Assembly: GCA_951230915.1 (NCBI GenBank)
Contig: OX579641.1
Location: forward strand, 22,174,254-22,238,253
Source of the DNA: Antitrichia curtipendula
Taxonomy: Eukaryota > Streptophyta > Bryopsida > Hypnales > Leucodontaceae
DNA length: 64,000 nt
Direction: 5' to 3'
Positions within the stretch are counted from its first letter, which is position 1; each line of letters starts with the position of its first letter. Below, piece after piece: positions 35,938 to 63,776 of this stretch. Under the pieces are notes generated by a model, which saw only the letters and a program-made list of their open reading frames with translations, was not told where the DNA came from and did not search any database. A program made the position numbers and the translations under genes.

Positions 35938-36033
35938 CCCAAAAAATATTTTATTTTTTGAGGCCCAATTTTTCTTTCCAAATTTTTTTACTTTAAAAAG
36001 TGGAAATTTTACTATTTATAGTAAAATTCAGGA

Positions 36034-42510: not shown

Positions 42511-42617
42511 CGCGTGGTCCGCGTCTGCGTCCGCGTGGTCTACGTCGGTTTTCTCCGTCGGTTTAGAGTTTAGGTTTTCTTGTAGTCGGTCTCTAAATCC
42601 AGACCCAGTCGTTGCAT

Positions 42618-42630
42618 GGTTTAGGGTTTC
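42618..42630. promoter_or_regulatory. Telo-box in element A's divergent promoter region
   Basis: GGTTTAGGGTTTC contains the complement of AAACCCTAA, the plant telo-box. Element B has one in the equivalent position. Confidence 0.4.
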
Positions 42631-42884
42631 TGGCTTACAAAATTTCGTAACCGAATCGCCCTGATTGTGCAGCAAAACCACAAAATCACGACGATGAGGA
42701 AACTCCGGAGCTGAGTTCAAGACGCGACCAGCCCGCCGGGGGAGATCCTCACCCCATCGCGGCGCCATCCGACATCAGCCACTCAAGAGCAGGTAAGTCC
42801 AAACGGAAATCCATTTACTTGTTTCAACATGGTCATCGGCGTGTGTTCATGGCCACTCTCCCATTCAATATGTTCATCGGTCTC

Positions 42885-43065
42885 GCGAAAAAAAAAATTC
42901 AGTCCCGCAGCGGCCTGTCACCCTCCCCGTACCGAAAACAGGGGTAGCGCAAGCTACCCCCAGGACCCCTGTCGGACCCGACGGAGGTCCTCGGGGTAGC
43001 TCGCGCTACCCCCGTTTTCGGTACGGGGAGGGTGACCGCCACAGCGGGACTGAATTTTTTTTCTC
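42885..43065. repeat. GC-rich nested hairpin 1
   Basis: Long arms (AAAAATTCAGTCCCGC outermost, then CACCCTCCCCGTACCG) enclose GGGGTAGC...GCTACCCC and a central GACCCGACGG palindrome. Three relatives follow within 1.8 kb with different outer arms but the same GGGTAGCGTGAGCTACCC-type core. Confidence 0.85.
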
Positions 43066-43079
43066 GGGATGGCTTCGGT

Positions 43080-43985
43080 TGTCAAGGCAGTTCTGCTTCC
43101 GTGACAAAGAGGACTAGATTTTTGTTCTCTCAAAACCAATTGAGTGGTCGTGTTTGGGCAATGGCTGTGTCTATGATAGCAGCGGGATATAATTCTTCTC
43201 TCTCGGGATGGCTGGAGGCTGTCAAGGCAGTGGCTGTGTCCATGACAGAAGCGGGACATAATTTTGTTTTCTCGAAACCAATTGAGTGGTTGGGTCTAGC
43301 TAGTGACCGTGACCATGGCAGCAGCGGGTCAGAATTTTGTTTTCTTGAAACCAATTGAGTGGTCGGGTCTAGCTAGTGGCCGTGACCATGGCAGTAGCGG
43401 GTCAGAATTTTGTTTTCTCGAAACCAATTGAGTGGTACTGTCATGGCGGTTGCTGTGACCAAGACAGCAGCGGGATTGAATTTTGTTTCTCGGGATGGCT
43501 TCAGGTTGTCAAGGCAGTTTCTGCTTCCGTGACAAAGCCGGAAAGAATGTTGTTTTCCCGAAACCAATTGAATGGTCATGTCTAGGCAGTGGTTGTGTCC
43601 ATGACAGCAGCGGGACAGATTTTTGTTTTCTCGAAACCAATTGAGTAGTCGTGTCTAGGCAGTGGCTGTGTCCATGACAGTAGCGGGGAAGAATTTTGTT
43701 TTCTCGAGACCAATTGAGTGGTCGTGTCTAGGCAGTGGCTGTGTCCATGACGGCAGCGGGACAAAATTCTTCTCTCTCGGGATGGCTGGAGGCTGTCAAG
43801 GCAGTTTCTGCTTCCATGACAGCAGCGGGACAGAATTTTCTTGAAACTAATTGAGTGGCACTGTCATGGCAGTCGCTGTGTCCAAGACAACAGCGGGATA
43901 GAGCTTTTGTCTCTCGGGACCCCTTGTGGCTGTCAAGGCAGATTCTGCTTCCGTGACACAGTGGGACAGATTGTTGGTTGCACAA
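43080..43985. repeat. Degenerate tandem array, about 72-bp unit with double units
   Basis: ACCAATTGAGTGG anchors lie at about 43134, 43278, 43349, 43423, 43562, 43637, 43709 and 43849, so spacings are about 72 bp or about 140 bp. Other recurring words are GGCTGTGTCCATGACAG, CAGCGGGACAGAATTTT and TCTCGGGATGGCT. It separates hairpins 1 and 2. Confidence 0.8.
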
Positions 43986-43989
43986 GTCG

Positions 43990-44109
43990 GTCCCTCTCCG
44001 TGAACCAGAAAGAAGGGTAGCGTGAGCTACCCCCCAGACCCCCTTCGGACCCGACGGGGGTCTGCGGGGTAGCTCACGCTACCCCTCTTTCTGGTTCACG
44101 GAGAGGGAC
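43990..44109. repeat. GC-rich nested hairpin 2
   Basis: Arms start GTCCCTCTCCGTGAACCAG and enclose GGGTAGCGTGAGCTACCC, then CAGACCCCC...GGGGGTCTG around CGGACCCGACG. Pairing is almost complete. Confidence 0.85.
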
Positions 44110-44419
44110 TGCCTTCTGCAAGGCTGTTTCTTATAATCCTACGAGGTATCTCACTGGGTTTGATCCAATTGGGCCATAACCCTTGCACAATCCCCACTCA
44201 CTAGATAGAGTTAATACGCATTTGTTATCACATTACATTAAAATGACCATGCTTGTCTCGGGTGTTGAGCAACACCCGTATTGGATAGCTCACCATAGAG
44301 ATTTAATCTCTGTGAGGGAAACACAGCTGACAATCTCAACACATCGTTTTTTGGTAAATCCGCATCGCTGCATCTTGTGAAATCCATCTGTTTACTATTC
44401 ACTTGGCCATTAGAGCATG

Positions 44420-44542
44420 TAGTACGTGTCTGTGAACAAAAAAGAAGGGTAGCATAAGCTACCCCCAAGACCTTCGTCGGGTCCGACGGGGGGTACGGGG
44501 GTAACTCACGCTACTCCTCTTTTTGGTTCACTGACAGGTACT
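44420..44542. repeat. GC-rich nested hairpin 3
   Basis: Outer arms AGTACGTGTCTGTGAACAA pair with the complement of CAGTACCTGTCAGTGAACC. The core GGGTAGCATAAGCTACCC and GTCGGGTCCGACGGG matches hairpins 1 and 2, with more mismatches. Confidence 0.75.
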
Positions 44543-44715
44543 GTATGCTTGAAGGCCTTCAAAAAGTGTAGAGTTACTTTTATTCTTCCTTTCTTAGTGA
44601 TGGTCGAAGTGCTTCATCATCCAAGTTGCACAACCATAATTAAGTAATCGTGAGCACACTTTAAGAGAGTTAGCAATTCTGCTTGAAGAATTGAAATGTA
44701 GAATCTCTCGTCGTC

Positions 44716-44776
44716 CCGATTTTGGGGGTAGCGTGAGCTACCCTCATGACCCCCGTCAGACCCGACGGGGGTCGTG
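44716..44776. repeat. GC-rich hairpin 4 (truncated)
   Basis: Only one side of the outer structure remains: GGGGGTAGCGTGAGCTACCC, then a GACCCCCGTC...GACGGGGGTC hairpin at about 44740-44772. Confidence 0.7.
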
Positions 44777-45018
44777 GAACTTGGACGTTAAAGCACTCGA
44801 AGTAGACATTTCAAATCTGAAAGGGGTATGCTTTTCAAATGTCCATCTATGTTTAATCTAATATGCACTTGTCGTGAATATAATCCTAATTGTATTTCTA
44901 AGAGTTTTAATTATGATTTTGAATTTATCTTAAATCATTATTGTGTCCTCTTAATAAGCATTCTCATGTTACTAGTTTCTTGGTTTTATTGATACAGTTT
45001 ACATTGTGTGTTGTTTAG

Positions 45019-45476
45019 ATGGAGGTAAATGAAGGTCCCAGAGGTCAAGGATCTTTATCCGATGCTGAGACTTTGAGTGTGATGGCCCTTGACATGGCGG
45101 GACCATCCTTACCATTGACTCCGATGGGTGCTAGCATTGAGGTGCCAGAGGAGTCCATTGCAAATGAGAATTTGGACTTGGTAAGCCTCGATGACATCTT
45201 GGATGCGTGTGACCGTGCCTGTGACTATGTGGAGCAGCCACATGAAAGCCATGTTAGTGGAGAGAGGACCCGGAAGAGGAATCCCGTGTCCTCCCCTGGG
45301 AGCTCCGGCACAGAATATAGCTCTAGATGTCACTCTTCAATCTCAATTTCTAGTCCTCCTTTTCAGGAGTTTTGTGACTGTGCTTGCAGTCACAATTTGG
45401 GCAAGCACAATGTGGTTATTATTCACCTGAGTTCTGACTCAGATGATGATGTTGATGTTGATGTTGATTCCATTTA
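45019..45476 (+). CDS. Acidic, Ser-rich exon upstream of element A's ParB gene
   Basis: An ATG directly follows an acceptor (TTGTTTAG). The 152-residue open segment contains a Cys cluster (CDCACSH) and ends with VVIIHLSSDSDDD, a hydrophobic-acidic stretch like a SUMO-interacting motif, then an Asp-Val repeat and a TAG followed by GT. It may be a first exon of the ParB-methyltransferase gene, with an earlier cryptic donor in the GTTGAT repeats, or a separate short protein. Element B has an exon of similar size, cysteine content and position (54221-53850) but little direct similarity. Confidence 0.45.
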
Positions 45477-46744
45477 GGTGGAATTCATATAATTTATTAT
45501 TGATATCACTTGTACGTTTTGATTTTTTATCTGTGTTTCATTGACATCTGTCATATTTCATACATGGACTAGCACAACATATTCTATGCATTTCATTATG
45601 AATTGTCTGACTTTATGATTTTCGTGGACGTCCATTATTTCGCAGATGGAGGAGTCACCTATTAGTCGGACCCAGGCTGAGAGACATACGGTGACACCAC
45701 CTACTGATGATTTGACACAGCCAGAGATTGGAGGTGAAGATGGTGAGGATTTGGCTATGGATGTTGTGGATGATGACGAGGAGGCCAAAGAATTGCTTGA
45801 GGATGAGCTTCGGAGATGGCAGAAGGTGGACTCGGTGTCCACCATTGCGAGTTTGAGGATGAAGCCAGAGAAACTCTCCCGACTGCGCATTCCACTATGC
45901 AGACTTGTGTCCATGCCAATGGTGAGGCCAACGCTTGCATCTGACCTTGTCAAACTAGAACAGGAGTTCATCTTTGGGTACCGAGAAGGCGCAGCGGTGT
46001 TCTACGTGTCCATAATCAATGAGGCTGGTGAGAGCTCGGACTTCACGGAGGAGGAGATGAACGGATGGGATACATGGTGGAAGAAAGCGAACCTGGATTT
46101 CAAGAAATATCTTGAGTCGGTTCCAAAGCTTCTGTTCATGAAGAACTTGAAGTTCTTCGTCTGCGATGGGAATCATCGCCTTCAAGCTTGGATGAATCAC
46201 ATTTCCAGGCTACATACGGCGAATCCGCTATTTCACTTTGCAGTTGACAGTATTATCTTGGATACGAAGGGGAGAATCGAATTGGTCATGCAGGTGATGC
46301 ATGATGTGAACAAGTAAGCATTATTGCTTCTTATGTTGTATATATATCCTCTATTGACCTATTATTTAGGAGTATGTGTTATTACGTACATGATTCACGT
46401 CACTAAACTTTTACATTCCATTTCAGATCAACAGAGGACTCTCACGTGAAGTCCAATCTTGTGCACACTCTTCACCGCGTGCAGAAGTACGGTCTTCTCT
46501 CCTTGGAGCAATTTAAGGAGATGTTAAGGCCTTCGGAGAGGCAATGGTGTGTTGTCCAGGCCGCGGGGAGGAAGACGTGGTATTCTATGCCCGTGGAAGT
46601 GTTTACGACATTTCTATTCCGGGTGAGCTTCTCTGATGGTCTGGGATCTAATATTGAGTACTTCCACCTTGAACTTCTTTACGATAGTAGCCTTTGTTTG
46701 TTGAAATGGTTGTTGATAACATTTATTTGCAGCAAGAGATTGCA

Positions 46745-46747
46745 TAG
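46745..46747 (+). other. In-frame TAG that can also act as splice acceptor
   Basis: After acceptor TTTGCAG (exon start 46733) the frame reads Q-E-I-A-stop; element B reads Q-E-I-A-S at the same place. The TAG supplies an AG, so splicing at 46748 would skip 15 nt, keep the frame and bypass the stop. Confidence 0.6.
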
Positions 46748-48238
46748 GCATCGGATGCAGCAGTGCGAAAATACAACGAGGGCACACCGATTGAGGAGAA
46801 ATTGGTAGAGGGAGTTGCAAATGCCATGAGATTGGGAGCGAAGGAGAGAGCCTCAAAGTTGCAGGTGAAAATGGGGAAGCTGATTGCGGTTGCAAACCCA
46901 ACTCATGGTCCCGGATTTCTAGAGGAGGTGAGAAGTAATTGCAAACCATCAATGTTAACAGTTCTTGTAATTGGATTTTATGTTCGGTTTTTCACTTGAG
47001 AAGTTTCGATTTTGTAAATTGAGAAGCAGTGGACCACAAATGAAGTCCCCAAAATGACCCTGGAGAAGCTACAGATGATTGCAACTTGCAATACAATGGC
47101 AGCACAGAAGTTGAAACTTCTGAAGTGGTGGAATTCCTCCATGCCCTCTCGAGATGCGAGACGGTTCCCAGCAAAGCCTGTTTCAGAGGAGAAACTGTTG
47201 CCATTCCTCAACAAGTTTGTCTGGTGGGCGGGGGTAAGTTCATTTATGAGTTTTTATTAAACTATTAGCATATCTGGTTTGATTTTTTAATTGATTTGGT
47301 TTTCCATTTTCAGTATTTATTTACTTCCAAGGCACTCAAATGGAACTTATTTATTGTTGATGCCACAGATTGAGAATGGTGCGTCGGAGTATTTCGAAAA
47401 TATTGCCAAGAAAGACAACCTCCAGGTCAACATGGCAACCCCGCTTGAGCCAGAGACACTCGCCGAGTACATTGAAGAGTGGAGGAGGAAAATTTGGGAT
47501 CACGGGTTTGGTCCCGTGATGAAGGGAGCAAATGCATTGAAGAAGTCAGACTCCTTTTCGAGTTATGACGGATCAAAGCTTGCTATTCAACGAGTTATTT
47601 TCCGGTATGTCTTTCACAGCCTACATTTTCCTCTTACTTTGATCAATGCGAGTGTCACACTAGCAATATGTTCTAGGTACATGTGACTATTCGCTAATAT
47701 AGTATCCACATACGTATTTGTTAATTACATGAAGTCGAAAATATATAGAGGGATGACTGGATATTATAATCCTTTATAATTTAGTGTAGGTTGAGTTCCA
47801 ACTGTATTCTTCATCTCATGCTTATGTAGCAGTATTAAAATGTGAATGAGAATGACTATTTGTTCGGCATGCCTAATGTTCTGTCTCTGTTTGTGTTTAT
47901 TGCAGTTACCTGAAGCATGAGCTTCTAGTTAAGGCCGCAATCGCTCGGGAGGATCTTCCTCCGTTCTTGTCTACTTGGCTGGACCGCAGTTCTGAAGAGT
48001 GCATGTACACCCAAAGCCAGCTTCGGACGTTTACGACAGCTCATCTGACAGGAGGAGGGTGGTATTTGGATTGTCACGTGACATTCACTCATCCTCTGGA
48101 GGCAGACCTTCGGAAGTCACTTGATGGAATTGGAGTGATTGACTTGGAGGTTGCAGAGTTCGCTGACCTCAGTGACCAAAAGAGGAGGAGGGCCATTGCG
48201 AGGAGTATTACTTCAGACAAGAAGAAAGAGACAACTCT

Positions 48239-48248
48239 GGAAGACATC
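48239..48248. repeat. Left target duplication of element B (GGAAGACATC)
   Basis: The same decamer stands at 61545-61554. Both copies lie in the same codon phase of the interrupted exon. Confidence 0.9.
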
Positions 48249-48320
48249 GGGGAATGCTGGTATGTGAGCGTAGAGCGGCGAGCGGTGAGCGGGAAGTGGG
48301 AATTGGTGAGCGTAGAGTAC
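48249..48320 (+). repeat. Element B left terminal inverted repeat
   Basis: GGGGAA then TGCTGGTATGTGAGCG, followed by GTAGAGCGGCGAGCGGTGAGCGG and another GGTGAGCGTAGAG. It pairs with 61468-61544. Confidence 0.85.
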
Positions 48321-48354
48321 AGAATTTTAAAAGTGTGAATTTGTGAGATGAAAA

Positions 48355-48660
48355 AAAGCTAAAGAAATAGATGAAAGTAGATGAAAAAGTGAATGGAAAA
48401 GTGGATGAAAAAGTAAATGAAAAATGGATGAAAAAATAGATGAAAAAATAGATGGAAAAAAGTGAAGAAAAGGATGAACTTTTCAGAAGAACTCATGAAA
48501 CTGATGAGTTGTTCAAGAGAACTAACGAAAATGACTTGGTGAAATGGATGAAATATTATTAAGGGTTTAGAAAACATCAGATGGATGAAAGTATGCCAGA
48601 GTGGATGAAAGTTAATGGCAGGAAAATTTGGATGGAAAATAAGGACAAAAGAATAAAACC
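48355..48660. repeat. (TGGATGAAA)n-rich tract, element B left
   Basis: Dense recurring GATGAAA/GGATGAAA words. The complementary TTTCATCCA words occupy about 61185-61300 near the right end, so the tract behaves like an extended subterminal inverted repeat. Confidence 0.75.
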
Positions 48661-48768
48661 AAGTGGACAAAATTACAGAGAGAAGGTTTGGTTATGGAAT
48701 CAAAAATCGTTTAAACCAGTTGTAGGATAGGATTTAGAGTACACCCATGGCTGTATACGTAACTTCTT

Positions 48769-48780
48769 CTATGACCGTGG
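48769..48780 (+). promoter_or_regulatory. Subterminal motif CTATGACCGTGG (element B left)
   Basis: It matches CTATGACCRYGG at the other three ends and points inward. Confidence 0.5.
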
Positions 48781-49061
48781 ATTTGATAGGGAGTTCCTTG
48801 TCTTGCCCTACCTATCACAAAAGGTGGATAGGGATCCAAAGAATTAAAGATACACAATGCATCAGTTGTTTTGTGGGATATGATAATTGAATTGATAAAA
48901 TTATAGAAGCCTCAGAATATAACACACCATCAATTTTGGAAGCATCGCCGTTCAAATAAGAAGTGAAATGCATACAATTACTGTAAAATAAGAGAGCAAC
49001 TTTGGCCACAAATCAACTATATCCGATTCGAATGTACAGCATCCTCAAAGAAGCTCATGAA

Positions 49062-52000
49062 CTAAAAGGCTGACATGGAACTACCCTCGCTATCCGAAGT
49101 ATGTGAATTTGACTCTTCTGCAATCAAATCTACAAACTGTAGAACACGGGAATCTACCAAATGGGCCCTAGAAGATGGCTGAGGGTTTAGGGCAATGAAA
49201 TCCTGGGAAAGAGCCTTAGCATACACAGGGAGATGAAACGGTTTAGGTGGACTCGGAAAAAATCGAGGATTTGCAAAAAAAGGAACTGCCTTCGAGAACC
49301 TCAAATCTTGGCCCTACCTACAGAACACGGTAATCCATATATTAGATGTTTAAAAAAACAACTGATGCATTGTGGCTAAATGGAAGAGTTCAATGGATGA
49401 CTTACTTACTGAATCGTGATGTTTTGACGACATGCTGGACCACTACTTCTTCATCGTCTAATTCACCGAGAACTAGCGTCGAGGAGTCTGGCTGTGCTTG
49501 ACCAACCACAGGTGGTCGAAGAATTGGAGCAATGAAGGCATCAAAGATGTCCTTATCTTCCTCAAATGCCAGAACATGGCGGCGTGTAGCGCGACATGCT
49601 TGAATGGTTGCACCTATGCACCAGTTAACACGTTAGGCAAAGATGTTAAAACGAGGTTGGACCCTATACAAATTGGATGAGGCAAATCCGATTTAGGATA
49701 GAGTCAAACCTGTTCCCGCTGTGCAGTCGACAACCATGTCCCCTGGTGCAGAACATGCCTCCACAAACATCTGCATGAACTGTCTCGCTTTCTCACGGGG
49801 ACCACGCCATGGAATGTTGCCATTCATGGTGATGTCCTCCTTGTTGCAGAAGTTCTGCAAAATGTCATCCCTAGCAACGTTCACACCCACAGCATCGTGG
49901 GACGGAACAAATTGGAATGGAAAGTCCCCAAGCGTCTTCGGACCCGACTCCTTCACGAGAAGAGAGATGGCAAACTTCATAGTCTGCAACAGAGAAACAA
50001 TGTGAGTGAAGAGAGATGGTGCAAACTGAAACAGTAACCTTTCAATGAACATCATGGAAATTTACCGTCTTTGTAGGGTCGGTTGGTGAAGTCAAATGAA
50101 GATGATTCATGCCAAAATAAGTTTCAAGAATGCGGAAGTTGTATTCCCGTGAACATCACAAAATGTGACTTCTGTGTGGAGGAGAGGGGGCAGGGTACAT
50201 CAATAGGAGGCCGCCATTGTCGTGGAGATACTCCTGCACAAAGTCAAAGACCAGAAGCAGATAGTCGTCCTTGAACTCATTCCACTTCGGAATGGGAGCA
50301 GGTGGGCAGGAAATGGTAGGAATATGGAGCCCTTCCGGTACATCCACAATCATCAAGTCCACTGCCTTGGTAGTTCCACTGACTCCATTGAAGGAGCAGG
50401 TTCTGTCACCGGAATGCTGCAAGGCGAAATAGACATGAAATGAAATTAAAACACAATGCAGTTGGCAACAATTCAAGTGACAGTTTGGGACATACTCATT
50501 TTTTATTTGATTTAAATGAATTGTGCACCACCCATACACAAGGATATATGTAAGAAAGAGGAAGACTAGGGAAATCACCCATCACACTTACCATTGCCAA
50601 AAATGATAGAACAGCAGCATAAGCCGGTGAGCCTAGGTCAAGACTACCTAGCGCCAAGTTCAGCACGCACTCGTCGATGTCAGGCACAGGTTGAAGATTT
50701 TGATGAGTAGGCGTCAATCCATGCACCAGATGCTCCTGCGTGAGGGAAAACCCGGATGAAGTAATGTTTCCATCAGCTGCACTTGTAGCTGGTTCAGGCA
50801 ATGGAGTCTCCTCTTTCCTTGAGCGACGCTTTTTCTTCTCTTTCTCCTGGTCTTTCTCACTCTGCAATACCAGTCTCTTCCTCTTGCTTTGCTCGGACTT
50901 TCTTGTGGCTTCCTCTAATTTATCCACCTTCTTCTTGTCAGATAACTCTCGCCTCTTCACGGCCTTGGCACGGGCTTCGGGATCCAATCCAGCAAATTCA
51001 TCGAACTCAGCATCTGCTACCACTGAATCTTTCATTGCTTGAAAAAGAGACTCCTCCTCGGGTGGAGTGATGCCAAAGTTGCACTCGAGGTACCAAGGAC
51101 ACGCCTGTAGATGAGCACTGGTCCACTTTTGCAACTGTGTTGGGGAGAACATACAATCTTGAGAGGATCGGTCCAACCAAGTCGTCAGAAAAGGCGGTAA
51201 GTCTTCCTTCTTAAGTCTTAACAGCTTTTTTCCCGTATAACTCAAACTTGAAATACTTATTGACAATAAGAGAGATTTTAGTGACAAAAATAAATAAGGC
51301 ATACGTCAATATAACCATACAAAATAGCCATTCAGTTAATAAAAGCCTATTACTGTGACTCTATTACAATCAGTGCCATCTTCAATAGTGAGGTGGTTCT
51401 GGATTAGGGACTAGAAAACCATGCATACAGAATATCGAACTTACTCAGTTACTCTCTCTCGGCACCGAGACCACATATGGATGAACAACCCCTTGCATGG
51501 TCTGGTATCAAGGAATGAAAATTGTTCAGCCCTGCCGAACCAAATCATCTCTCTCGATACCAAAACAACCAGGTTGCGAGAAAGAGGTAAACACAACTAA
51601 ACAATTTAAAGTTCAGCTAAAACATTTTTCACATATATATTTTTGATCAAAGGTGAAGATTAGGTATAAATACTTGTAAATCATACGCTTTACAGTGAGG
51701 TCGGATCCTCTATACTCCTTAAAGGTGTCCGACTTCTTGAAGGCATCGGCGCCTTTGAATACCCCCGTGTAGGCGTGATCCTATAGCTTCATCCGCCACG
51801 ACTCAATATACTCCCCTAGTGACTTAGGCTCAGTGGGGACGGTCATATCAATAGCTAAGTTATCCGACCTGGTGATGGAATCGAACATCTCCAGAGCTGC
51901 CTCCTCAATCTGCATGGACCATTTTGTAAGCGACAGTAGAAACGGCCAAGATAGCAAGCCTGCTCAGATTGATCCCTAGCAACATGAAGAGTATACCCAC

Positions 52001-54221
52001 AATACTATTAATTAACAACTGAAATATGATAATAAGGGTGGAAACTCATACCCCAGCATAGTAACAGGCTTTTGCAAGGAAGACAACTAACTTCTCTTCG
52101 TTCATTGGGCGGGGTGGAAACCGTCGTGCCTCTCTAGTGGGACCACTGGAATTCATCCAATTGAGCCACTTCACTTTAAATGATGGAGCAACGTTGGCTG
52201 TAGCAATGAGTTGCAACTTCTCTAGCGTAAGTTCCTGAACGGCATAGAGGCTCCAGTGCCGTTCAATCTGCAAAATGAAAGCGAGAACTCAATACAAGAA
52301 ATATATAATACATTTCAATTCATGTCAATTAGAAAATGAATGGGTCATACCTCCTTCAACCAGTCATCACCGAGTGCGGGATTAGCAACGGCCACTATCT
52401 TGGAGAGTTTTTTGTAGTGTCTCTTTGTAGCGTCCTTGATAGAGGATCTCATAGCCGCTGCCACCCCCTCATTAGTGATTTCATCTGCTGGGGTTTCCTC
52501 ATGGTATTTTCGTACACCAAAATCAGCCGCTGAGGCAATCTCTTGCTGAAATGATGAAAATACAATTACAATACAGGTAAATATGGTGAAGGATATATCA
52601 AATAATGCACCGACATGGACTCATGCCGTGGAACAAGATGAGCAAAATCAGTGAAGAATCAAGGAGATCATACCTTGAATATGAAGCTGGTGAATACGTC
52701 GAGGGGCATACTGCACCAAGTTTTCCGAAAACTCAGCTGACAGGTTTTGACTTCCTCCGCGCTCAGTAACTCATAGAATTTCTCGATCTCCATAACACCG
52801 TACTTCTGAACCCGATATAGCGTGTGGACAAGATTTGTCTTCACGTGCGAGTTCTCTGTGTGCCTGTCCGGTGAGTTCACAAAGTGAACCGTTAACATAA
52901 GAAATCAGTGGTTCAAGATAATAACAGTAGTGAGTGATGATACACATGTACACAAATGGGAAAGACGTAAGGAGAGGTTTACTTATTAATATCGTGCATT
53001 GCTTGCATTGCCACCCCGATACGATTCCGCGTGTCGAGGATAATGGAGTCCACGCTAATATGCCAGTCCTTCTCACTACTATGAAGACGATGGATGTGAT
53101 TCATCCAGGCAATACGTCTGTGGTTTCCATCACAGACGAAGAACTTGTAGTCCACAAGGTGCTTCAAGGCTGGAAGGGAGTTGAGATGATCATTGAAGCT
53201 ATCATTCACGGAATTCCATATGAGACCCCACTCCTTCTTCTCGTCATCAGTGAAGCTCCCTGTCTTCCCTTGCTCATCTGATATAGAAACGTAAAAAACT
53301 CGCGCTCCCTCTTCATATCCCCGGGTAAACCGGTTCTCAAGTAACGTCAAGTCCGACGCTAATGTCGGTCGAACCATTGGCATCGGAACCAACCTGCACA
53401 AAGGTATTTTCATCCGACAAAGGTCGTTTGTGGTGAGCTTCAAACTGTTGACGACGCAGACCGTATCCAGAGTTTGTGTCCTACTGATGTCATCTTCAAG
53501 AAGTCCAGGATCCACTCCGGGAATGCTATCATCCTGCGAATCATCTGCATCTGAATCTGAGCAAATGACAGGCTGCTCGTTGAATGTCTCAACTGCAGTG
53601 CCACTGGAAGTGGTACGTGGTGTTTTCATGAGACACACCTGGAAGATGATAAGTGGAGTTAATACAGAACAATGTCCCGTCGATTTTAAGACACAAAGTA
53701 CATCAAACACTATTATATGGTATGTCATTACAAAATATCCATTCCGTGATGCAAGATATAATCTGTCATTATACAAGTCCATGTAACAGTATATCTCAAA
53801 CTCTGCATTGACATGCCGCTGAAAGTAACCTATACGAACCGCAGCAGAAAATGAGGATGTCATCGTTGGATTGATAACCAGAATCCACATCCTCATGATC
53901 GCATGTGCAGTACTGAGTGCTAGCATCAGATATCGTAACAGTAGCTGCTAAGTCTTTGGACCCACATGAAGTGCAACAGGAGTCCGAGGAGGGCATGCGT
54001 CCCTCCCCATACGGTTCCCCCCATCCTAACTCAACATCAAGCAGATGAACGTGAAGCTGTACCGGCCGCGGTAGACTGGGAACGAGAACTATTGGGCCAC
54101 CTTTGCCACCATCAAGGTCGTCGCACTGGGGAAATACCTCCTCGACAGGCCTTGGACCCGGAGGAGAACTAGATCCGCCTAACTCCTGAGGTTGGATATC
54201 CATAGCAGCCCTTCGCAGCAC
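49062..54221 (-). pseudogene. ParB-like/methyltransferase gene of element B
   Basis: The exon order and phases parallel element A: 53638-52983 (ParB-type, with FFVCDGNHRRIAWMNH), 52863-52674, 52545-52351, 52267-52052, 51909-51674, 51240-50592, 50416-50066, 49983-49710, 49613-about 49406, then the terminal exon ending at 49062. A further 5' exon begins at ATG 54221 or 54203. The 51240-50592 exon encodes a highly charged Lys/Glu helix near KKVDKLEEATRKSEQSK. The C-terminal exons give the methyltransferase-like fold: DLMIVDVPEG, then NGGLLLMYP, then GDMVVDCTAGTG and ACRATRRHVLAFEEDKDIF. Stops interrupt it at 51783-51781 (TAG where A has Trp) and 50158-50156 (TGA). The junction into the last exon could not be matched in frame. 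It is homologous to A throughout but no longer intact. Confidence 0.85.
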
Positions 54222-54320
54222 CTACAAACGAATAATAGAGTCATTTATCTCCAATAGACAACTCAATAATTAAATTCGTGCCATGCAAACTAAAGTCCAT
54301 AATGAGGCAAGCCCGAGCTC

Positions 54321-55074
54321 ACCTACTGAAAATCCAAATAGAAATCCAAAAAAATATAAAAACAAATTCATCACACCCTAGTGCTAACAATGATAACCCT
54401 ATCCAAGCATAAGGTAGAGAGCGGAAATCCACTCTCGGTACCGAGAGGGCCCTTGGGGGACCTGTTTGATGCATAGGAACCGCACAGCCAGACAATGCTC
54501 ACCTTCTGAATTTCAAAAACAAAACCCAAAAAAATATAAAAGCGAATTCACCACATCCTAGTGCTTTCAGCTTTACCCCTGTCCAAGCATAAGGTAGAGA
54601 GCGAAAACCCTCTCTCGGGACCGAGAGGGCCCTCGTCCGACCTGTCTGATGCAGAGGAACAACAAAGCCTGACCAAGCTCACATTTTGAAAATCAAAAAC
54701 TCAAACCAAAAAAATATAAAAGCAAATTCTCCACACCCTAGTGCTTTCAGCTTTACCCCTGTCCAAGCATAAGGTAGACAACGGAAACCCTCTCTCGGGA
54801 CCGAGAGGGGCCCTCGTCCGACCTGACTGATGCATAGGAACAACAAAGCCTGACCAAGCTCACATTTTGAAAATCAAAAACTGAAACCAAAAAAATATAA
54901 AAGCGAATTCTCCACACCCTAGTGCTTTCAGCTTTTCCCCCGTTCAAGCATACGGTAGACAGCGGAAACCCTCTCTCAGGACCGAGAGGGCCCTCGCCGG
55001 ACCTGTCTGATGCATAGGAACAACAAAGCCTGACCAAGCTCACATTTTGAATATCGAAAACTGAATCCAAACTT
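54321..55074. repeat. Tandem array, 180-bp unit, four copies (element B)
   Basis: Identical anchors (CACCCTAGTGCT, CAAGCATAAGGTAGA) recur at exactly 180-bp steps (181 for the last). Each unit contains CTCTCGGKACCGAGAG, a near-perfect or perfect 16-bp palindrome (first at 54432-54447). It lies between the divergent genes, the position held in element A by unrelated 91-bp and 72-bp arrays. Confidence 0.9.
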
Positions 55075-55076
55075 AT

Positions 55077-55328
55077 GGCCAAATTCGTTAAAATGAGACA
55101 AAATGGTCATTTTGAGACTTCAACCCTAAAACCGTTTTAGTGATTTTATCCTCGAGTCGAAGATAAAATGCGAGTGCAACCTTTGGGCAATCAAAGGTTT
55201 TTATATATATTAACATATGAAAGTCTCAAATCACCAAATAGTCTCAAAATTAAATAGTTATAACGATTTATCTTCGAGTCGAAGATAAAATTGAGACTAC
55301 ACTTTGTCTCATTTTAATGAATATGGCC
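55077..55328. mobile_element. 252-bp miniature element inside element B
   Basis: Terminal repeats of 26 bp with two mismatches: GGCCAAATTCGTTAAAATGA at the left and its complement at the right. Two near-identical 23-bp palindromes, at 55145-55167 and 55267-55289, lie symmetrically inside. The terminal 'TTCGTTAAAATG' recalls the elements at 16545 and 18404. No clear target duplication was found. Confidence 0.75.
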
Positions 55329-55563
55329 TTACTTCGGTCCCTGTGGATTTCATGTTTCGAGCGCCAGCCGTCGCCAAATTAGTTGGTGCAGTTGCCGCCG
55401 CCATGTTCCCGTCCGCGCCAGTACCGCCCATCACCAAACTTCTCCCGCTCCGCAGAATTCGGCTTCCATCCATGGAGAGCTTTAAAAGGAAAACGAGAGA
55501 GCTTTGGACAATACAACAAAGGGAAGAGATCATGAAAGCAGCGGGTGAGAATAAATTCAATCT

Positions 55564-55576
55564 ACCCTAAACCCTA
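55564..55576. promoter_or_regulatory. Telo-box in element B's divergent promoter region
   Basis: CCCTAAACCCTAAG includes AAACCCTAA. It occupies the same relative position as 42618-42630 in element A. Confidence 0.4.
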
Positions 55577-56466
55577 AGTGTCTCCAGAATGATTGCTCGT
55601 GCGCTGCCTTTCGCACTACTTGGATAGTACGTTTCCCATTCGGTGGTCGGCGGAGGTAATTGGGGAATTTAATTAATTGAACTGGCATGCTTCGTGCTGA
55701 CTTCGAGGCATTTGTTTGAATTTTCTCTTCGTGCCGCCACCATCTCGTCTTCTCTAGGCGTTGTCATACCTGACAGTCGTACTGACTAATTTATTATTCT
55801 GGCACTTCGTCAACGTAATCGTGCAGTTCGCTGGACTACTTAATAATGTGGATTGCCCACTCCAAATTTCTGTTTCATTAGATTTTATGGCATTCAATGG
55901 TAAGTGAAGTTTCTGAACGCATTCGGTGAATCTGTTGTTGTATGCTACCGAATCCTTTCCACATTGTCGAGGATGTTTCTGATAGTTCGAGATGGGAATT
56001 GACTCAGACATCAAGTGAACAGCGGCTCCACGGGTGTGTTGAATACTTGTGGAATACGAGGCCAAGGCAATACATTTTCAATAACTTCCCCCACTTGCAT
56101 CTGAGCATTTCTAGATGAGGGCTTTATGTATACACCAATATCACGAATTTCCTTGTCTTTAAGGTCTAACAAATGTGAGGGGATTAACCTTAATGAGATC
56201 TAGATAGATCTGATGAATGCCTTAACTCAGCCGTCAAATTTCATAGGTTTTGCCGTACATTTAAACGGCTGAATGCGTGATTCAATTGCATCTGGTGTTC
56301 TTATATCAAGAATCTCGCTATTTCAATTTAGGGTGGTAGGGCCCATTGTTAGAAGCATTTGTCATTGTAGTTTAACTTAGGTGTTTCATAGTGTTTTTCT
56401 AACGTACTGTATGTTTTCTTTATTTCGAGCATAGATAGGTTTAGCTCCCGCCTGCGAACCTGGTCG
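55577..56466 (+). other. 5' region of element B's transposase gene
   Basis: No repeat or coding segment was recognised. It contains the presumed plus-strand promoter and leader. Confidence 0.4.
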
Positions 56467-59400
56467 ATGGAGGAAATGATGCATTCTTCGCAAAGGGTTG
56501 TTGTCAGTGCAAACGGCGAAAGAGTTCCTATATTGTTTGATGTGGACGAGAATGGACTTGTTGTAGTGTCAGCTTCTCGATTATGCCTACAGTTTCAATT
56601 GAAAGAGGGTTCGGTCCATTTGGACGAAGAAATCTATGATAGCGAGTCTGGCATACTCAGCCACACTATTGGTCAAACTCCCTCAAACGATGGAGTGAAT
56701 ACTAGGTGGATGCTCAAACCTGGAAGGTATAGAGCGTACGGAGTGTCGGAATTCAGTAGATTGACATCGTCGGAAAATGCTCCACTGTATCGGTCGTCGT
56801 CGTGTTCATTTCAAACCCCCCTCCTCAATCGTGTTAAAGTAGAACCATTGGAACAGAATGTCATGATCCTTAGTGATGATTCAGACGTAGATTCTCCAAC
56901 GAAGCCTCCCGCTACTATCGATTCCAGTTCGGGTCAATGTTCTCTCGCTCCAGAGTTTATTGCTCAAGGTTCTGCTGAGCCCAAGCCGGTCGTATCTATG
57001 ATGGACGGCTTAAGGGGACTGCATGGCCTGAAGGGATGTCGAAACATTTTGTCAAAGCTAAACTATGACGCAATTGACATTCACAGAGTCTCAGTACTGC
57101 CTCCATCTTTCAACGGCAATGTCATTTTCGAACTTCCTTCCCTACATGCCTCCGGTTCTACTTCCCAGGCAAGGCAAATGTCTGGCATGGATAAACGATA
57201 TGATGGACATGTGTGGTCCAAAACTGTGACCACCAATATCATTAATCCAATGGGATTAGTGTTTCGCACGTCAATTTGTGTAGGGCATTTGCGCTGTGTT
57301 AACCCTACTTGCGAGTTTCTATCTCGAGTACACCGAACCATGGATGTAAACGAATTAGAATGGGAAGGATTGGCATCCACATCACTTGATGTTGGTCACA
57401 AGCATCCTCCCGGATCAACTCTTGTCTGCAGGATTTGCAAGGAGCCTCCCTCTTGTATTGCTCGATGCGATGTGCGTGTTTACTATGTTGTAGGAAACCC
57501 GAAACTCACCCGGGCTTTCGTTCATTTGGGAAGTCACGAGCATCCAGTGAAGGATGGTGAGCTTAGAGACATGAAGGAGAAAACACGGTCTCTCATTGAG
57601 GAGCAGTTGGAGAGAACACCATCGGCAACAAATTCCTCCATCGTCATGGAGGCTACTAAGGAGCTTCTTGGAGGCTTACTCCTTTGTCCGGATGGAGAGA
57701 CTCCAAAAGCAATGGACTTCAAAGAGCTTGTCTCAGTTTTGGACAAGTGCAAACATCTGAGCTCACCTTCTATTCGGAACGAGGTAACTTCATTTAAGTA
57801 CGTGAGGAGATTTGGAGTGATAGATAGTATCACCAAATTGAGAGGATCCAGTACTTGGGCATTCGTCCAGGAAAGCAAATTTCCAGGTCAAGGTATCGAT
57901 GTGGATAAGGTTTTCGTATTTAAAATGTCAGAAGTTGGACCAAGTAGCGGAGTGGACTTGGTGAAACGCATGCAAACCGGAGGAGATCTGGTAGATGCTT
58001 GGGTAATATTTGACCATGTCAAACGTGTAAAAGGTTGGACGACCATGGCATGCCATGTTTATGACTCCATGTACTGCCGTGTCATGACTATTGCTTGTTG
58101 CGACATGCAATCGGAAGACTGTGCAGCACAAGTTCTGTTTTGGAAAAACCTAAACTCAGTCCTTAATAGGAATGGAGTTGTGGACATTCAGTTTAAAGGT
58201 TTCATGGCGGATAGTGCCCAAGCGAATTGAAATGTTGTGAGGTTAGTTTACGGTTCTGGTGATATTTGAGATCCAATGGACAACCGAGAGAGGACGTGCC
58301 TTTTTCACTGGACCCAATCCATAGAGAAGCACACTAAGGCTGAAATTAGAGGGGATTTTCAAGATCAGCACCGTTTGCTTTGCAAGCAATACAAGAATGC
58401 TACGTTGCCAGAGCAATCTGAAATGCGATACCTCGCCATCAAATCATGGTGGTTGTCATCAGGTGCCACCACACAGGAAGGAGTGCGAAGACTGGAGTTG
58501 TGGCTATCATTTTGGCATTTCCGCTATCGCCAATGGGGTGGATTCATGCAGCTGGTAAGGCGGTGTCTTTTGCCATTTGGAATTGTAATTCTTTGCTAGG
58601 TCTATTGTATTATGTCTACTGTCTCATCATTTCATTGCTATCAGATGGAATGCTCTGTTTTCCTAAATTATTCATTTTTTGTTTTTTAGTGCCATAATAT
58701 AATCTCCAATTATTGCATGGAATAGGATGTCCGTCGATGCCTCTTGGTACAGAGAGGATCTGATGGGGTTGCTAGAATATTTTTATTTCTATTTCCATTA
58801 TTGAAAGCATCAATGTACACTCAAGCATATCTTCATTCTGTTCTTTGAGTTTGCAACTTCTAGTTGCAAGTCTCTCGGTACCTAGAGAGGGTTGATTGTA
58901 GGATTGTGTTTAGGTTCAATGGACTCAATTCTCAGGCCCTCTTTAATTGCAATCGCCATTTTGTATGCACCTGGCTTAGCTGAGATGTCCCCTAAAACTA
59001 AATTTGTACTACTCCCATTTTTTGGCAGAATTTAACTGAATCCAAGTTGGCTGAAATGCCATCTTGTAACTTGGCGGAGACTGTTCACAATAAGTGGCTA
59101 CAGCAGTCTGGAAACCGGGGTAATGACTTATACATTGCCACGGTAGACGATTTTGTGAGGGCGTTCATGCAGATGGTGAAGTATTATCAATACTTGAAGG
59201 GTAACCAATCTAGAACCGGACCAGGAAAGGAAGAACTACTATTGCGAGTAGCCCAGAGGTCGGCCGAGCGAACTGGTAATCCAAAGGCACTAACTGAAGC
59301 TATTTCAAATATTCCAGGGGTGGAAGAATTTTTTGATCGAGAGCCCCACCTAGAAGGTGAAGAGATTTTTGGATCGCAGAAGAGGAAGGCAGACATGCCA

Positions 59401-60549
59401 TTAGGATGTGAATACGATTCGCACAGACCAGACAAGGTGAACTATTCCCATCCCCGCGTACAAACAAGATCAGGGAGAGCCAGTACAAGTGTTCCAATTT
59501 TGAATACAATTTCGGAAGATATTTCTCCAATTGTGGATTCGGGACCCCAACCAGTGATCTTAGACGACGGGACCCTAGGACAACATCAGCATCCAAATTT
59601 GATGCACGTATTTTCTATTCAAGAGAGCATGTGTGATGAAACGCAATGGCATATTGCACGATTGCCTAAGAATTCTGCGAAAGCGTGCTTTGCTCTTCAG
59701 GCAATTACGAAGAAGAAGTGCATTGCGCCGATTGTTCAGAACAACATTGCAACCACGGCCCCAACATATACAGGTATGATGGTGAATTATAGGAAAAACC
59801 GCAATGAACGCATGCAATTCTTCTTTTGCAATGACGATATTGAAAGGTGTGTAAAAGGGACGCGGAGGAAATGGGTGTTATCAGTACCACCTGTTCCGAA
59901 GATTTGGCCGATCAAAATGGGCACGAAACTCTCAAAGGCTGAGATTCTGTCTTTGGAAACGTTTGGTTTCCAACTTCCACAACGGGAAGTTATTTCACCA
60001 AGGAGACTCTTCGGCGGTGAAGCAGGAGTTGAATTGGTCCATGCTTATCCTATTCCAGCGTCCCCTCACGAATATCCGTCAATTCGAGCGGGTAAACTTG
60101 TTCGGAGGAATCCAAAGGCTCCAACAGTAAAGCACCAAAACAATTGTGCTTCAGCTTTAACATTGAGTAGAAGAATTCAAAAGGTAACTATGGTTCCTCA
60201 TCCGGGATTTGGGTGCATAGTGTCATTGAAGTCTGGTTTGGAGCCCCGTGAAGAACTGTACTTGTTGACAATTTCTTGTTTTCCTGACTGCACCTGTCCA
60301 AATTTCAAGGAGATGAAGCTGAAGTGCTTGGGAAAGCGCGGAACGTGGGCAAATTGCAAGCACCTTTATTTCATATTCACGGTCATTTGCAACTTGCAGT
60401 GTACAACAGATGGCTTCATTCATGCAGCAACATTCAGTTTTAATGAAGTCAAACATGTTCTTCTTAGCGGCATATTGAATCATTTGGAACGAAATGAGAT
60501 CTTGTTGACACGTAGTAGTGTCACTTCCCGTGTTTACTACTTAATTTAA
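56467..60549 (+). pseudogene. Element B SWIM-domain transposase-like gene (nearly intact)
   Basis: Two exons, 56467-58554 and 59029-60549 (donor CTG/GTAAGG, acceptor TTTGGCAG), give 1,203 codons. Residues about 130-147 hold NVMILSDDSDVD, SIM-like. Residues about 275-360 are Cys/His-rich (CVGHLRC, CRICKEPPSCIARC, HLGSHEH), probably zinc-binding. The core runs about 470-690: IFDHVKRVKGWTTMACHVYD, FKGFMADSAQAN, RTCLFHW and WHFRYRQWGGFMQ. A C-terminal SWIM finger, CTCPNF...NCKHLYF, is at about residue 1130. The layout is Mutator-like; the Asp residues of CHVYD and FMADS are candidate catalytic ones, unproven. Two TGA stops interrupt the core, at 58228-58230 (Trp in A) and 58267-58269. Otherwise the frame is open for over 4 kb, so decay is recent. 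Confidence 0.87.
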
Positions 60550-60786
60550 TGAAAGTGTAGTGAGACTACAAGGGCCACTACTTTCACTTCATTACCCTAT
60601 ACATGTTTATCAAATTTTTTTATTTATATATAGTAACTGTTGTATGTTCTTCTTTGTATTTTTCCATCTCTGGATTCCACTCTGCAAGCCCAGTAGTGGA
60701 AAAGCGCTGTAGACTTTAACTGTTTCGGAATTCTAGTTAGATCCCACATGGCACCCTAAACAGTATCCCTTAAATCCACAACGATA

Positions 60787-60800
60787 CCACGGTCATAGGA
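60787..60800 (-). promoter_or_regulatory. Subterminal motif CTATGACCGTGG (element B right)
   Basis: CCACGGTCATAG on the plus strand. A weaker copy (GTGGTCATAGG) lies at 60968-60978. Both point inward from the right end. Confidence 0.5.
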
Positions 60801-61184
60801 TACTCTCTACCATTGGTCACAGGAAATACTAGCCACAACTTAATGTATCAATAGGTCCAAGTCTTATTTTCATTTTTGGGCCTAGTCCCTAAACCATTTT
60901 CATTTTTGGGCCTAGTCCCGAACATTTTTCTCTTTGATATTGATCAATCACAGGAACTCCTAAATATGTGGTCATAGGGGTTGATGTGAAGGTCTTATAG
61001 TTTTGAAAGGTGAAAGACTCCTTTTTAATCTGAAGCTCATTTTCAAAACCCTAAAACCCTGAAGCATATGCTTGATGTAGAATTCTGAAGGCTTATCATA
61101 AATAATTTTCTCCCCGTAAAGGACTACTAAATTACCCCCAGAAGAACCCTAAACCAACAAGTTCTTGATGTATTGTCCCCTATT

Positions 61185-61300
61185 TCTCTATGTACTTTCA
61201 TCCATTTTCCATCTGCTTTCATTCATTAGTTCAAATACTTTCATCCATTTATTCATCTACTTTCATCCAACTTTCATCTACATTCATCCCTACCTTTTTA
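61185..61300. repeat. (TTTCATCCA)n-rich tract, element B right
   Basis: Recurring TTTCATCCA/TTTCATCTA words complement the GGATGAAA tract at 48355-48660. Confidence 0.7.
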
Positions 61301-61467
61301 ATCCCACAAATGTCATTTTTCTTTCATTCTTATCCCAATTTCAAAAACCCGTTCGTAAATCAAAATGAAACATTCGCCCAATTTTTTGGGAAATTTCACC
61401 CAATGTTGAGGTATATTTTATCCAATTTTTTCCCTTGTTTTATTTAATATCTGAAATTATGTTCCTA

Positions 61468-61544
61468 AACATACGCTCCCAGCTCACCATTCTACGCTCC
61501 CCGCTCGCCGCTCGCCGCTCCCCGCTCACATACTAGCACCGTTG
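61468..61544 (-). repeat. Element B right terminal inverted repeat
   Basis: CGCTCCCCGCTCGCCGCTCG words end in CGCTCACATACTAGCACCGTTG; it pairs with 48249-48320. Confidence 0.85.
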
Positions 61545-61554
61545 GGAAGACATC
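61545..61554. repeat. Right target duplication of element B (GGAAGACATC)
   Basis: It duplicates 48239-48248. Counting it once restores the open frame of the interrupted exon. Confidence 0.9.
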
Positions 61555-63447
61555 ATAGCAAACAGGGAGAAGAAAGAGGCGGACCGCTTGGCGAAGTTGG
61601 CTGAGAAAGAGAAGGAGGCGGAGTTGGAGGGGAAGGGAAATAGCAAAGGGAAGAAGAAGGTGGATGGAGGTGGCGAAGTGCCTGCAACTTCAACGGTATA
61701 CCAGGGCTCGGCTATGCAAGCTGGATCTGGTAGACGACTGAAGAGGAAGGCGGTACTGTCTGAGGTGACGACGGACTTGGTCACGCAAGGGATGGATGTC
61801 ATTGTGATTGGTGATGATGATGAGGTCAACTCCGAGGAGTTGATCTTGAACATCTCCATTGTGGATGTCATGGATAACGTGGATGCAGAAACGGCGACAT
61901 GCTACAGTGAGGTCATGGAGTTCATTAAAAAGGTAAGGTATTAGTATTTCAAATTTGGTAATTTGGTATTGCAATGATGAACTTGAACATTGTATACTTG
62001 TACATTTATTGATTGATTATTCATTCATTAATTAGAGGAAATTTGTTTTGTAGTCGTCGGCAGGAAAAGCACGCACACACGGCGGCATTGTGAGCCGTGC
62101 GCCACTAATGGATCTTATTTTTTTCGACTGCCAAGAGAATTTGCCCGTGTCGGACGTCTCATTTCCAGCAAATGCAGTGCCTACATGGAACTCAAACCCG
62201 GAGTACGATGACATTCAGCAGGCATTTCTTTTTGCAGAGGACCATTTGCAAGACCATGGCTGCATGGTAGTATTCCACTCATACTGCGCAGATTCAAAAG
62301 GCGTCATTAAGGGTTTATATGTCACATACCCGACGCTGGTGGTGAAGAAAGAGTGGTTGGGCATTAACCGTGTGCACTTGACCTCCCCATTGGATGAAAG
62401 CACTACGGTATGATTTTTGAATTAATGCTCGTTTGGTAAGTATTTGGCATTAGTGATGAAACTTCTTAATTTCTGACAAGTTTTTGGTTTTTGTGATTGC
62501 AGACTCTGAAGTTTGGAATCACCCTTTTGGTGAAGGACCTCGGGGCAAATGGAAAACCGAAGTTCTCTTACATGCACACAAAGTCCATGCAGAAGGCGAA
62601 AGTAGACCTTGCAAGGGACGACATGCTCATTAATTACACGACGGAGGAGACCATGTTGATGAACGAGAAAATACCATGGCGGGGGGCTCGCGAGAAGGAC
62701 CCTAGATTCTTTCAGTTCTTGATAGAAGGGACTACCATTGAAGGAGATTTAGTGGTTGATTGCACAGCATCGACTGGTAAGTTTTGAATTCAATGATGTT
62801 GCAGTTCATTTGTTTATCATGTTGTCGAATCATATCATTTACATGATTTCGAATCATTTCATTTACATTCTTCATCGCAGGTGCATCCATTACAGCTTGT
62901 CGCGGCACAGGCCGCCACATTGTGGCTTTGGAGGAGGACAAAGATATTTTTAATGGACTCCTTCTGCCCATAAAGAAGAGCACTCCGGTTGTAGTGACAG
63001 CGGAAGTGACAGAACCGCCAGCATCGGTTGAGGCCTCCCAAGATCCGGACGCCATGACGGTGGTGCCCCGGAAGTTTGCTCGGAAGAATAGAGCCAGTAA
63101 GTAAGTTTCTTCATTTATAAATATTTTGTGAATGCATGGTGCTTTTTTCTCTATGAGTCTAACATTGTGTCATTTATATTAGCAGTCGTAAGGGATTGAT
63201 GCCGACAGTTTCTTTGTTGAAGAAACGTAGACTTCTCATTAGTCCAGAGAAGTCTTTTCATCTTCCGGTGTATGCCGAGAAGATGGCATTGTCATTTGCG
63301 GATTTGTGTTGCTCAATTCCAAAGCCCCGTAAACCTTCTTACGCTAGAAATGTTTTAGAGTTTATTGATGGATCAACATCTCAGGGTAGAGAGACATCAG
63401 ATTCGTCTACGAACGAGGATTCTAAGACTGAGTCCACTGCCACTTAG
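61555..63447 (+). pseudogene. ParB-like/methyltransferase gene of element A, 3' part
   Basis: Exons are 61555-61932 (continuing the exon cut at 48248), 62054-62407, 62503-62776, 62881-63100 and 63186-63447. The first is a charged helix (ANREKKEADRLAK...) ending with a SIM-like DVIVIGDDDE. The next two begin the methyltransferase-like fold: LMDLIFFDCQENLP where N6/N4 amino-methyltransferases carry (D/N/S)PP(Y/W/F), then QDHGCMVVFHS. IPWRGAREK, GDLVVDCTASTG and ACRGTGRHIVALEEDKDIF follow, the last two resembling motif I and the following GR..IG.E strand. The motif IV-like segment precedes motif I, the beta-class permuted order. The DPPY position is degenerate (DCQE), so catalysis is doubtful. 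The last exon has a tandem acceptor (AGCAG at 63181-63185). The part has lost its 5' half through insertion of B. Confidence 0.85.
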
Positions 63448-63692
63448 ACTCATGAGATTGACATATCTTATGAGTTGAACTATTGTGTATTGATTTTCAT
63501 TGTGATTGGATTTGTGTGTTTTATGGCTACATTTTGGACGTCATTTCTATCCTTTTATTCTTCTAGAATGCGTGATTTCAATTCAATTGATATGAATTAG
63601 TGATTGACATAACTAAATTGAAAATGATTTCTAAGTAACATAAACTTCCAATATTTTCACTCACATTTATGGGAATTTCTAATTACCTACGT

Positions 63693-63705
63693 CCATGGTC
63701 ATAGG
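63693..63705 (-). promoter_or_regulatory. Subterminal motif CTATGACCATGG (element A right)
   Basis: CCATGGTCATAGG on the plus strand, the fourth copy of CTATGACCRYGG, 71 bp inside the right end. Confidence 0.5.
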
Positions 63706-63735
63706 GCCCGGCAGAAAAATTTCTCCAAAATAAAT

Positions 63736-63776
63736 TCCCGCTCACAGGCTCACAGGCTCACATGCTAGCAACCCTA
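63736..63776 (-). repeat. Element A right terminal inverted repeat
   Basis: CCGCTCACAGGCTCACAGG leads to CTCACATGCTAGCAACCCTA, directly followed by TGTCAAAAGA. It complements the left end from GCTAGC inward. Confidence 0.85.

Follow-up and report, generated by a model that had tools for sequence, protein, structure and literature searches.

A candidate self-recognition gene with a methyltransferase-derived domain in putatively Mutator-like transposons of the moss Antitrichia curtipendula

We analysed a stretch of 64,000 nucleotides of the Antitrichia curtipendula genome (assembly GCA_951230915.1, contig OX579641.1, positions 22,174,254 to 22,238,253; hereafter the window), which contains two DNA transposons, one within the other, each with a transposase gene and an accessory gene (gene A in the outer element, gene B in the inner one). 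As modelled, the accessory protein comprises about 1,000 residues, with a ParB/Srx-like segment at the N terminus, a domain of predicted methyltransferase fold at the C terminus and a long part between them. In most of the copies analysed, a dyad is conserved before the accessory gene, which suggests that the element uses this protein to recognise its own DNA. A preliminary description of the window had proposed that such a protein may recognise or mark its own DNA; more than 1,000 candidate gene copies, a candidate DNA site and a conserved change in the active site now make this proposal concrete, and raise the questions of whether the protein binds TCGGNNCCGA and whether its methyltransferase domain is a reader rather than a writer.

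Linkage of the accessory gene to a transposase

The inner element (48249-61545) sits in the outer one (35862-63776), and both share a layout in which a transposase gene and the accessory gene are transcribed outward, in opposite directions, from a central noncoding region. The accessory gene was divergent to, and adjoined, a putative SWIM-type transposase gene in all five elements examined, i.e. the two of the window and three fetched loci. In each of the three fetched loci the same transposase was found upstream and divergent, 41-82% identical to the two of the window, the one of C9 running past the fetched stretch. As had been proposed, a DNA transposon thus carries the gene beside its own transposase, and a host gene with a neighbouring transposon was rejected on the basis of this linkage. 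From their ends and target duplications, the elements appear to be Mutator-like: duplications of 9-10 bp and terminal inverted repeats agree with the pattern of this group (8-11 bp duplication, terminal inverted repeats). The SWIM match of the transposase was below the Pfam cut-off (best E=0.016), and Pfam searches of the element proteins gave no match to a MULE transposase domain. The outer ends are related to the inner ends but shorter, GCTRGYRTGTGAGC being present in some form at all four ends of both elements; the terminal repeats of C218 could not be paired.

Elements and transposase genes of the window:
35862..63776, no strand assigned: outer element, 27.9 kb with the inner element, 14.6 kb after subtracting the latter and one duplication
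35852-35861 and 63777-63786: outer target duplication TGTCAAAAGA, 10 bp
48249..61545, no strand assigned: inner element, 13.3 kb, complete, disrupting a coding exon of the outer accessory gene
48240-48248 and 61546-61554: inner target duplication GAAGACATC, 9 bp
48255-48311 and 61482-61538: inner terminal inverted repeats, 57 nt, 82%
36835..40680, minus strand: outer transposase gene in several exons, of which 36835-37800 contains the SWIM-like segment
56392..60549, plus strand: inner transposase gene, with exon 56392-58230, a middle exon in 58270-58599 and the C-terminal exon 59002-60549 (SWIM-like CxC...CxH)

The interval 45646..63447 had been described as one gene. Gene A does lie there, but a complete inner element occupies one of its coding exons; a single 18-kb gene was therefore rejected, the interval being gene A interrupted by an entire second element. 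Exon models were built by comparison of A with B, and a possible first exon of gene A (45019-45477) is uncertain. The ParB-like and methyltransferase peptides noted earlier were recovered in exons 45646-46313, 62503-62776 and 62881-63100, the last two encoding GDLVVDCTAST(G) and GRHIVALEEDKDIF, with the motif IV-like DLIFFDCQEN upstream in 62054-62407.

Accessory genes:
45646..46313, plus strand: gene A, ParB-like exon, encoding IPLCRLVSMPMVRPTLASDL and FFVCDGNHRLQAW (IPLCRLV..., FFVCDGNHR)
46427..48248, plus strand: gene A, middle exons 46427-46622, 46733-46927 (in-frame TAG), 47018-47233 (acceptor apparently lost), 47369-47604 and 47906-48248 (cut by the inner element)
61555-61932 and 62054-62407 (motif IV), plus strand: gene A, first part of the remaining exons
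62503-62776 (motif X-like and motif I), 62881-63100 (motif II) and about 63181-63447 (last exon), plus strand: gene A, last part of the remaining exons
53638-52983 (ParB-like), 52863-52674, 52545-52351, 52267-52052 and 51909-51673, minus strand: gene B, earlier exons
51212-50592, 50416-50066 (motif IV), 49983-49710 (motif I), 49613-49406 and about 49313-49062 (last exon), minus strand: gene B, later exons

Gene B (49062..53638, minus strand, read from 53638 to 49062) has diverged from A, with 49% identity in the ParB-like exon and 32% in the C-terminal part, and shares with it the same domain order and the same modelled exon boundaries, in agreement with the earlier statement that two diverged copies retain the arrangement. 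Both copies are damaged: gene A by an in-frame TAG, by the apparent loss of the splice acceptor before the next exon and by the insertion; gene B by in-frame stops in two exons and one frameshift. The full modelled protein cannot be made from either copy in the window.

A conserved dyad between the two genes

The intergenic DNA carries a core of 10-12 bp, GTCGG(A/G)(T/C)CCGAC, generally TCGGNNCCGA. Among the 256 dyads of the form XXXXNNX'X'X'X', TCGGNNCCGA ranked first in 13 intergenic regions: it was found in 11 of them (the next best dyad in 6/13), with 31 sites, where 200 Markov sets gave an expectation of 0.29 and a maximum of 2. Outside intergenic regions, six sites were counted in 109 kb, made up of other element parts and 35.85 kb of non-element DNA, and none fell in the non-element part. 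The dyad occupies palindrome centres in several elements, lies in regular tandem arrays in 3/13 regions and is dispersed in others. Its form is mostly GTCGG..CCGAC in the A lineage and CTCTCGG..CCGAGAG in copy B. It was first noticed in the palindromes of four elements, and the form of copy B was recognised only once its array was seen; in eight regions fetched after the motif had been noticed, and chosen before later results, the exact core was present in six.

Among 30 scored copies, of which 20 are near-identical A copies, 27 had a dyad with at most one mismatch no more than 1.5 kb upstream. Genome-wide, GTCGGRYCCGAC was counted 478 times, against 24 for the reversed control pattern; for the 50 listed places, which are all on contig C1, a scored gene copy lay within 10 kb of 42 and within 5 kb of 38, where 0.58 and 0.34, respectively, would be expected, and over the stretch they occupy 16 of the 22 scored ParB-like exons had an exact dyad within 5 kb. 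Recognition of own DNA, as first suggested in the preliminary description, gains support from the conservation of this dyad.

Noncoding features of the window that carry the dyad or lie beside it:
41953..44861: outer intergenic region, with two tandem arrays that lack the dyad, one of 93 bp x 6 at 41953-42510 and one with units of about 73-286 bp at 43042-43970
42972 (centre of palindrome 42883-43069), 44045 (centre of palindrome 43978-44121) and 44477: outer dyads TCGGNNCCGA
54316..55071: array of 4.2 units of 180 bp in the inner intergenic region, which contains dyads TCGGNNCCGA at 54435, 54615 and 54795
51459..51468: intronic dyad TCGGCACCGA, between gene B exons 51909-51673 and 51212-50592

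The same intron of the gene contained the dyad or a one-mismatch form in four diverged copies (L071 at about 2254, with one mismatch; L073 at 2404; L074 at about 2345; copy B of the window at 51459). In L075 (G000:C2), positions 7366-8336 form a 160-bp x 6 array between the genes, in which the dyad or its one-mismatch form recurs every ~160 bp in an iteron-like layout.

A methyltransferase-derived domain with an altered active site

The C-terminal part of copy B scored 31.5 bits (E=2.2e-7) against Pfam PF01555 (N6_N4_Mtase), above the curated cut-off of 26.7; copy A and L074, with 16.0 and 17.6 bits respectively, did not reach it, and 10 of 11 family members matched the profile at E<=1. PHROG DNA methyltransferases were matched at best at 1.6e-9 by B and 8.7e-6 by A. 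A profile of the 11 members was colinear with CcrM over positions 15-232, motif IV first (E=1.6e-4), and matched DpnA at 1.2e-4, the best stretch being the motif-I region. All 11 members share the T-G of x-A-[SGA]-T-G in motif I. An hhalign comparison gave 97.9% (E=5.8e-13) against six phage methylases, and 0.2% (E=0.39) for the reversed control; the target comprised the six phage rows alone, and an alignment that contained the two window sequences was not used as evidence. With tblastn, phage methylases covered 91% of the domain at E=1e-3. The likeness is beyond chance, and the C-terminal domain is thus predicted to adopt a bacterial-type, beta-class N6/N4-methyltransferase fold, with motif IV before motif I, the order that had been read in the window at the outset.

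Motif IV itself departs from the catalytic consensus: it is mostly D-x-[P/Q]-E-N-L instead of (D/N/S)PP(Y/F/W). The segment aligned to DPPYN of CcrM reads D-C-[PQH]-E-N-L in most of the A lineage and D-V-P-E-G-L in B. Motif IV was covered by 118 of 129 aligned sequences, which include the window's own genome and were found by similarity to members with the altered motif, so that the counts say nothing on more distant relatives. Asp is present in 115 of these 118 rows. The third place is Pro in 62, Gln in 43 and another residue in 13; the fourth is Glu in 112, Lys in five and Asp in one, and the aromatic residue of (D/N/S)PP(Y/F/W) was found in 0/118; the fifth is Asn in 108 and Gly in nine. 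The most frequent 4-mers were DCQE (38), DCPE (29), DIPE (13) and DVPE (7).

Loss of the motif-IV aromatic is expected to abolish ordinary amino methylation. From the known role of the aromatic residue, we infer that N6/N4 methylation has probably been lost, and the methyltransferase-derived domain is probably no ordinary methylase. The conservation of the non-canonical motif IV itself points to a change of function rather than to simple decay. The family resembles CcrM, DpnA and phage DNA methylases in motif order, predicted fold and colinear alignment, and differs from them by a motif that is mostly D-x-[P/Q]-E-N, without the aromatic in any covered row, and by fusion to a long N-terminal part.

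The ParB-like segment

Strong conservation was observed for IPLCR[LM]V.MPMVRPTL..D, FFVCDGNHR and WH..VDSI.LD across 138 sequences (18 family rows and the best 120 of 552 database matches). DGNHR was near-invariant (D134, G137, N137, H136 and R129 of 138). The order of the conserved segments is that expected for ParB/Srx, in which a G[ED]RR or DGxHR motif typically follows a strand. A weak recurrent match was obtained to PHROG 1033, 'ParB-like partition protein' (best E=0.012 in 10/18 and 0.039 in 11/36). DUF1015 was matched at 0.0044 in 3/18 and 0.057 in 2/36, and the unrelated KMP11 did as well (0.0053 in 3/36). The 18-sequence profile gave no match to PDB sequences, and the ParB-like exon of B none to phages at E<=10. 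Fold models of the ParB-like exon were of low confidence, with a predicted local distance difference test score (pLDDT) of 34 from two sequences and 53.7 from 18.

Family size and constraint

In the 400-Mb genome, a first look returned 1,315 candidates for the ParB-like exon of A, 1,131 for its motif-I exon and 1,270 for the copy B exon; those beyond the scored ones are candidates rather than verified copies, and some may be shared among the three sets. For each query 150 were scored and all matched, at 54-100% identity for the ParB-like exon. Among the 12 best-scoring copies, 11 had no stop in the sampled exon. Public protein collections contained 552 relatives of the ParB-like exon at E<=0.01 and 123 of the motif-IV exon at E<=1e-5, the best 120 of each being listed. 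When the protein database was queried with full-length copy B (983 residues, X at stops), 7,996 candidates were scored and none reached E<=1; exon-sized queries did match. In viral contigs, none of 192 pattern matches was a relative.

Between A and B, in the two parts compared, third codon positions differed at 62-67% and second positions at 30-42%. For the C-terminal part, the NG86 method gave a nonsynonymous divergence (dN) of 0.76 and a synonymous divergence (dS) of 2.9; for the N-terminal part, methods for dS were saturated or failed. The excess of third- over second-position differences and the corresponding modelled exon boundaries argue that the gene has long been maintained as a protein in two lineages.

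Proposed function and alternatives

We tentatively favour, with somewhat less than even confidence, a role of the accessory protein as a self-recognition or anti-silencing factor following the logic of VANC. The protein would recognise the dyad TCGGNNCCGA in the noncoding DNA between the two genes, and this recognition would distinguish the element's own copies from the remaining genome; at the dyads, it would shield or derepress its own element, or regulate both promoters, as VANC does for VANDAL. The methyltransferase-derived domain would act as a scaffold that binds a cofactor or DNA, in parallel to METTL14, and not as an ordinary N6/N4 methylase. According to published accounts, VANC of Arabidopsis VANDAL elements removes silent marks (PMC5735166, PMC10398659), and its targets, in the noncoding DNA of these elements, 'often form tandem repeats' (PMC5735166). 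The likeness to what is described there is one of layout, i.e. an accessory protein encoded by the element and candidate targets in noncoding DNA, here in tandem in 3/13 regions. If the proposal holds, a sequence-specific, element-encoded epigenetic factor assembled from bacterial-type parts would represent a second anti-silencing strategy beside VANC. A more specific version, in which a ParB-type protein with a repurposed, non-catalytic methyltransferase domain binds TCGGNNCCGA in a parS-like manner so as to mark or shield the copies of its element, with a joint divergence of protein and site, appears doubtful to us.

Several observations weigh against this interpretation. The exact core is missing from two of the 13 regions (none in L083, one-mismatch forms in L084), regular arrays of the dyad were seen in only three (C2, its close relative L088 and inner B), and the outer arrays are without it. 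Sites are common to related regions (C2/L088; L081/L082) through their shared ancestry and are multiplied within arrays, which means that neither the 13 regions nor the 31 sites are independent; likewise, the genome-wide count of GTCGGRYCCGAC partly reflects copy number. The dyads could instead be sites for the transposase or for a host factor. Among the parts compared between A and B, conservation is lowest in the motif-IV exon (23%). The ParB fusion claimed in the preliminary description keeps in its favour the near-invariant DGNHR and the weak PHROG 1033 match, but no significant ParB profile was found: the profile searches proposed there, which for N6_N4_Mtase passed the cut-off in B (A below), gave no ParBc match in Pfam for the ParB-like segment, with single sequences or profiles. 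In addition, hhalign against three classical ParB sequences reached 0.2%, no better than shuffled sequences (20 controls), and a structure search with the ParB-like exon model gave no match. ParB identity is a plausible lead, not established by profile or fold.

That the protein helps transposition, as a second, MURB-like subunit for target choice or end synapsis, with the dyads as regulatory sites of divergent promoters, is in our view rather unlikely: the gene adjoins the transposase in 5/5 elements and the dyads lie between two divergent genes, as this would have it, but they are central and not terminal, and another repeat, GCTCACAG, is located at the right ends in the outer element and in three fetched ones. 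An active self-marking enzyme, whose ParB-like part locates element DNA and whose methyltransferase adds N6-methyladenine or N4-methylcytosine, as suggested for Ectocarpus Sola1-1, could draw on the predicted beta-class fold, the conserved motif I region and the motif IV Asp kept in 115/118 rows, as well as on the proposal by the Ectocarpus authors of binding and epigenetic modification of the own transposon (PMC12477816). We consider it unlikely, since the catalytic aromatic is absent in all 118 covered rows, with Glu in 112; of the earlier suggestion of marking, the recognition part is thus strengthened while ordinary methylation is made unlikely. Capture as a passenger in the manner of Pack-MULEs, without function for the element and with the dyads as a host motif, would fit the broken state of both window copies and the abundance of Pack-MULEs in plants indicated in PMC6446971. 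It is nevertheless very improbable, given that the sampled exon is free of stops in 11 of the 12 best-scoring copies, that gene, order and partner are kept in two deep lineages, that conservation of the protein contrasts with nearly saturated third codon positions, and that the dyad tracks the element.

Relation to known systems

ParB-methyltransferase accessory genes have already been reported in algal transposons, with green and red algal cases besides that of Ectocarpus, self-marking being put forward in that report as a proposal (PMC12477816), and since such proteins are in print, the general kind is already known. The Ectocarpus case concerns a Sola-1 element (PMC12477816), whereas a putative SWIM-type transposase with 9-10 bp duplications is found here. 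In searches of the open-licence literature, no title or abstract opening describing this family or its dyad was found, nor was the altered motif IV. The bacterial Bce_0392 is described in PMC5512222 as a ParB domain fused to an adenine methylase, with nonspecific nicking by the ParB domain cited; the likeness is one of ParB-methylase fusion by description, the ParB identity of the present family's own domain being unproven.

Element ends and other observations in the window

A CACGGTCATAGGT-like motif is repeated near the element ends (36033-36060, 48767-48778, 60789-60800 and 63695-63706) and is also found at the right ends of C2, C218 and C9, with a few weaker matches elsewhere in the window. 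The subterminal repeat GCTCACAG was located at 63740-63762 in the outer element; three fetched elements (L076, L078, L080) also have it at their right ends, and in its place the inner element has CGCTCCC-type repeats (61472-61529). Both subterminal repeats, distinct from the central dyad, are possible transposase sites.

For the open reading frame 20634-21083 (minus strand), which resembled a starch synthase in its motifs, the Pfam search gave no match; no host gene was thereby identified, and no claim on the host is based on this reading frame. An almost perfect palindrome of 170 bp (99%) spans 21963-22132, and lies within neither element.

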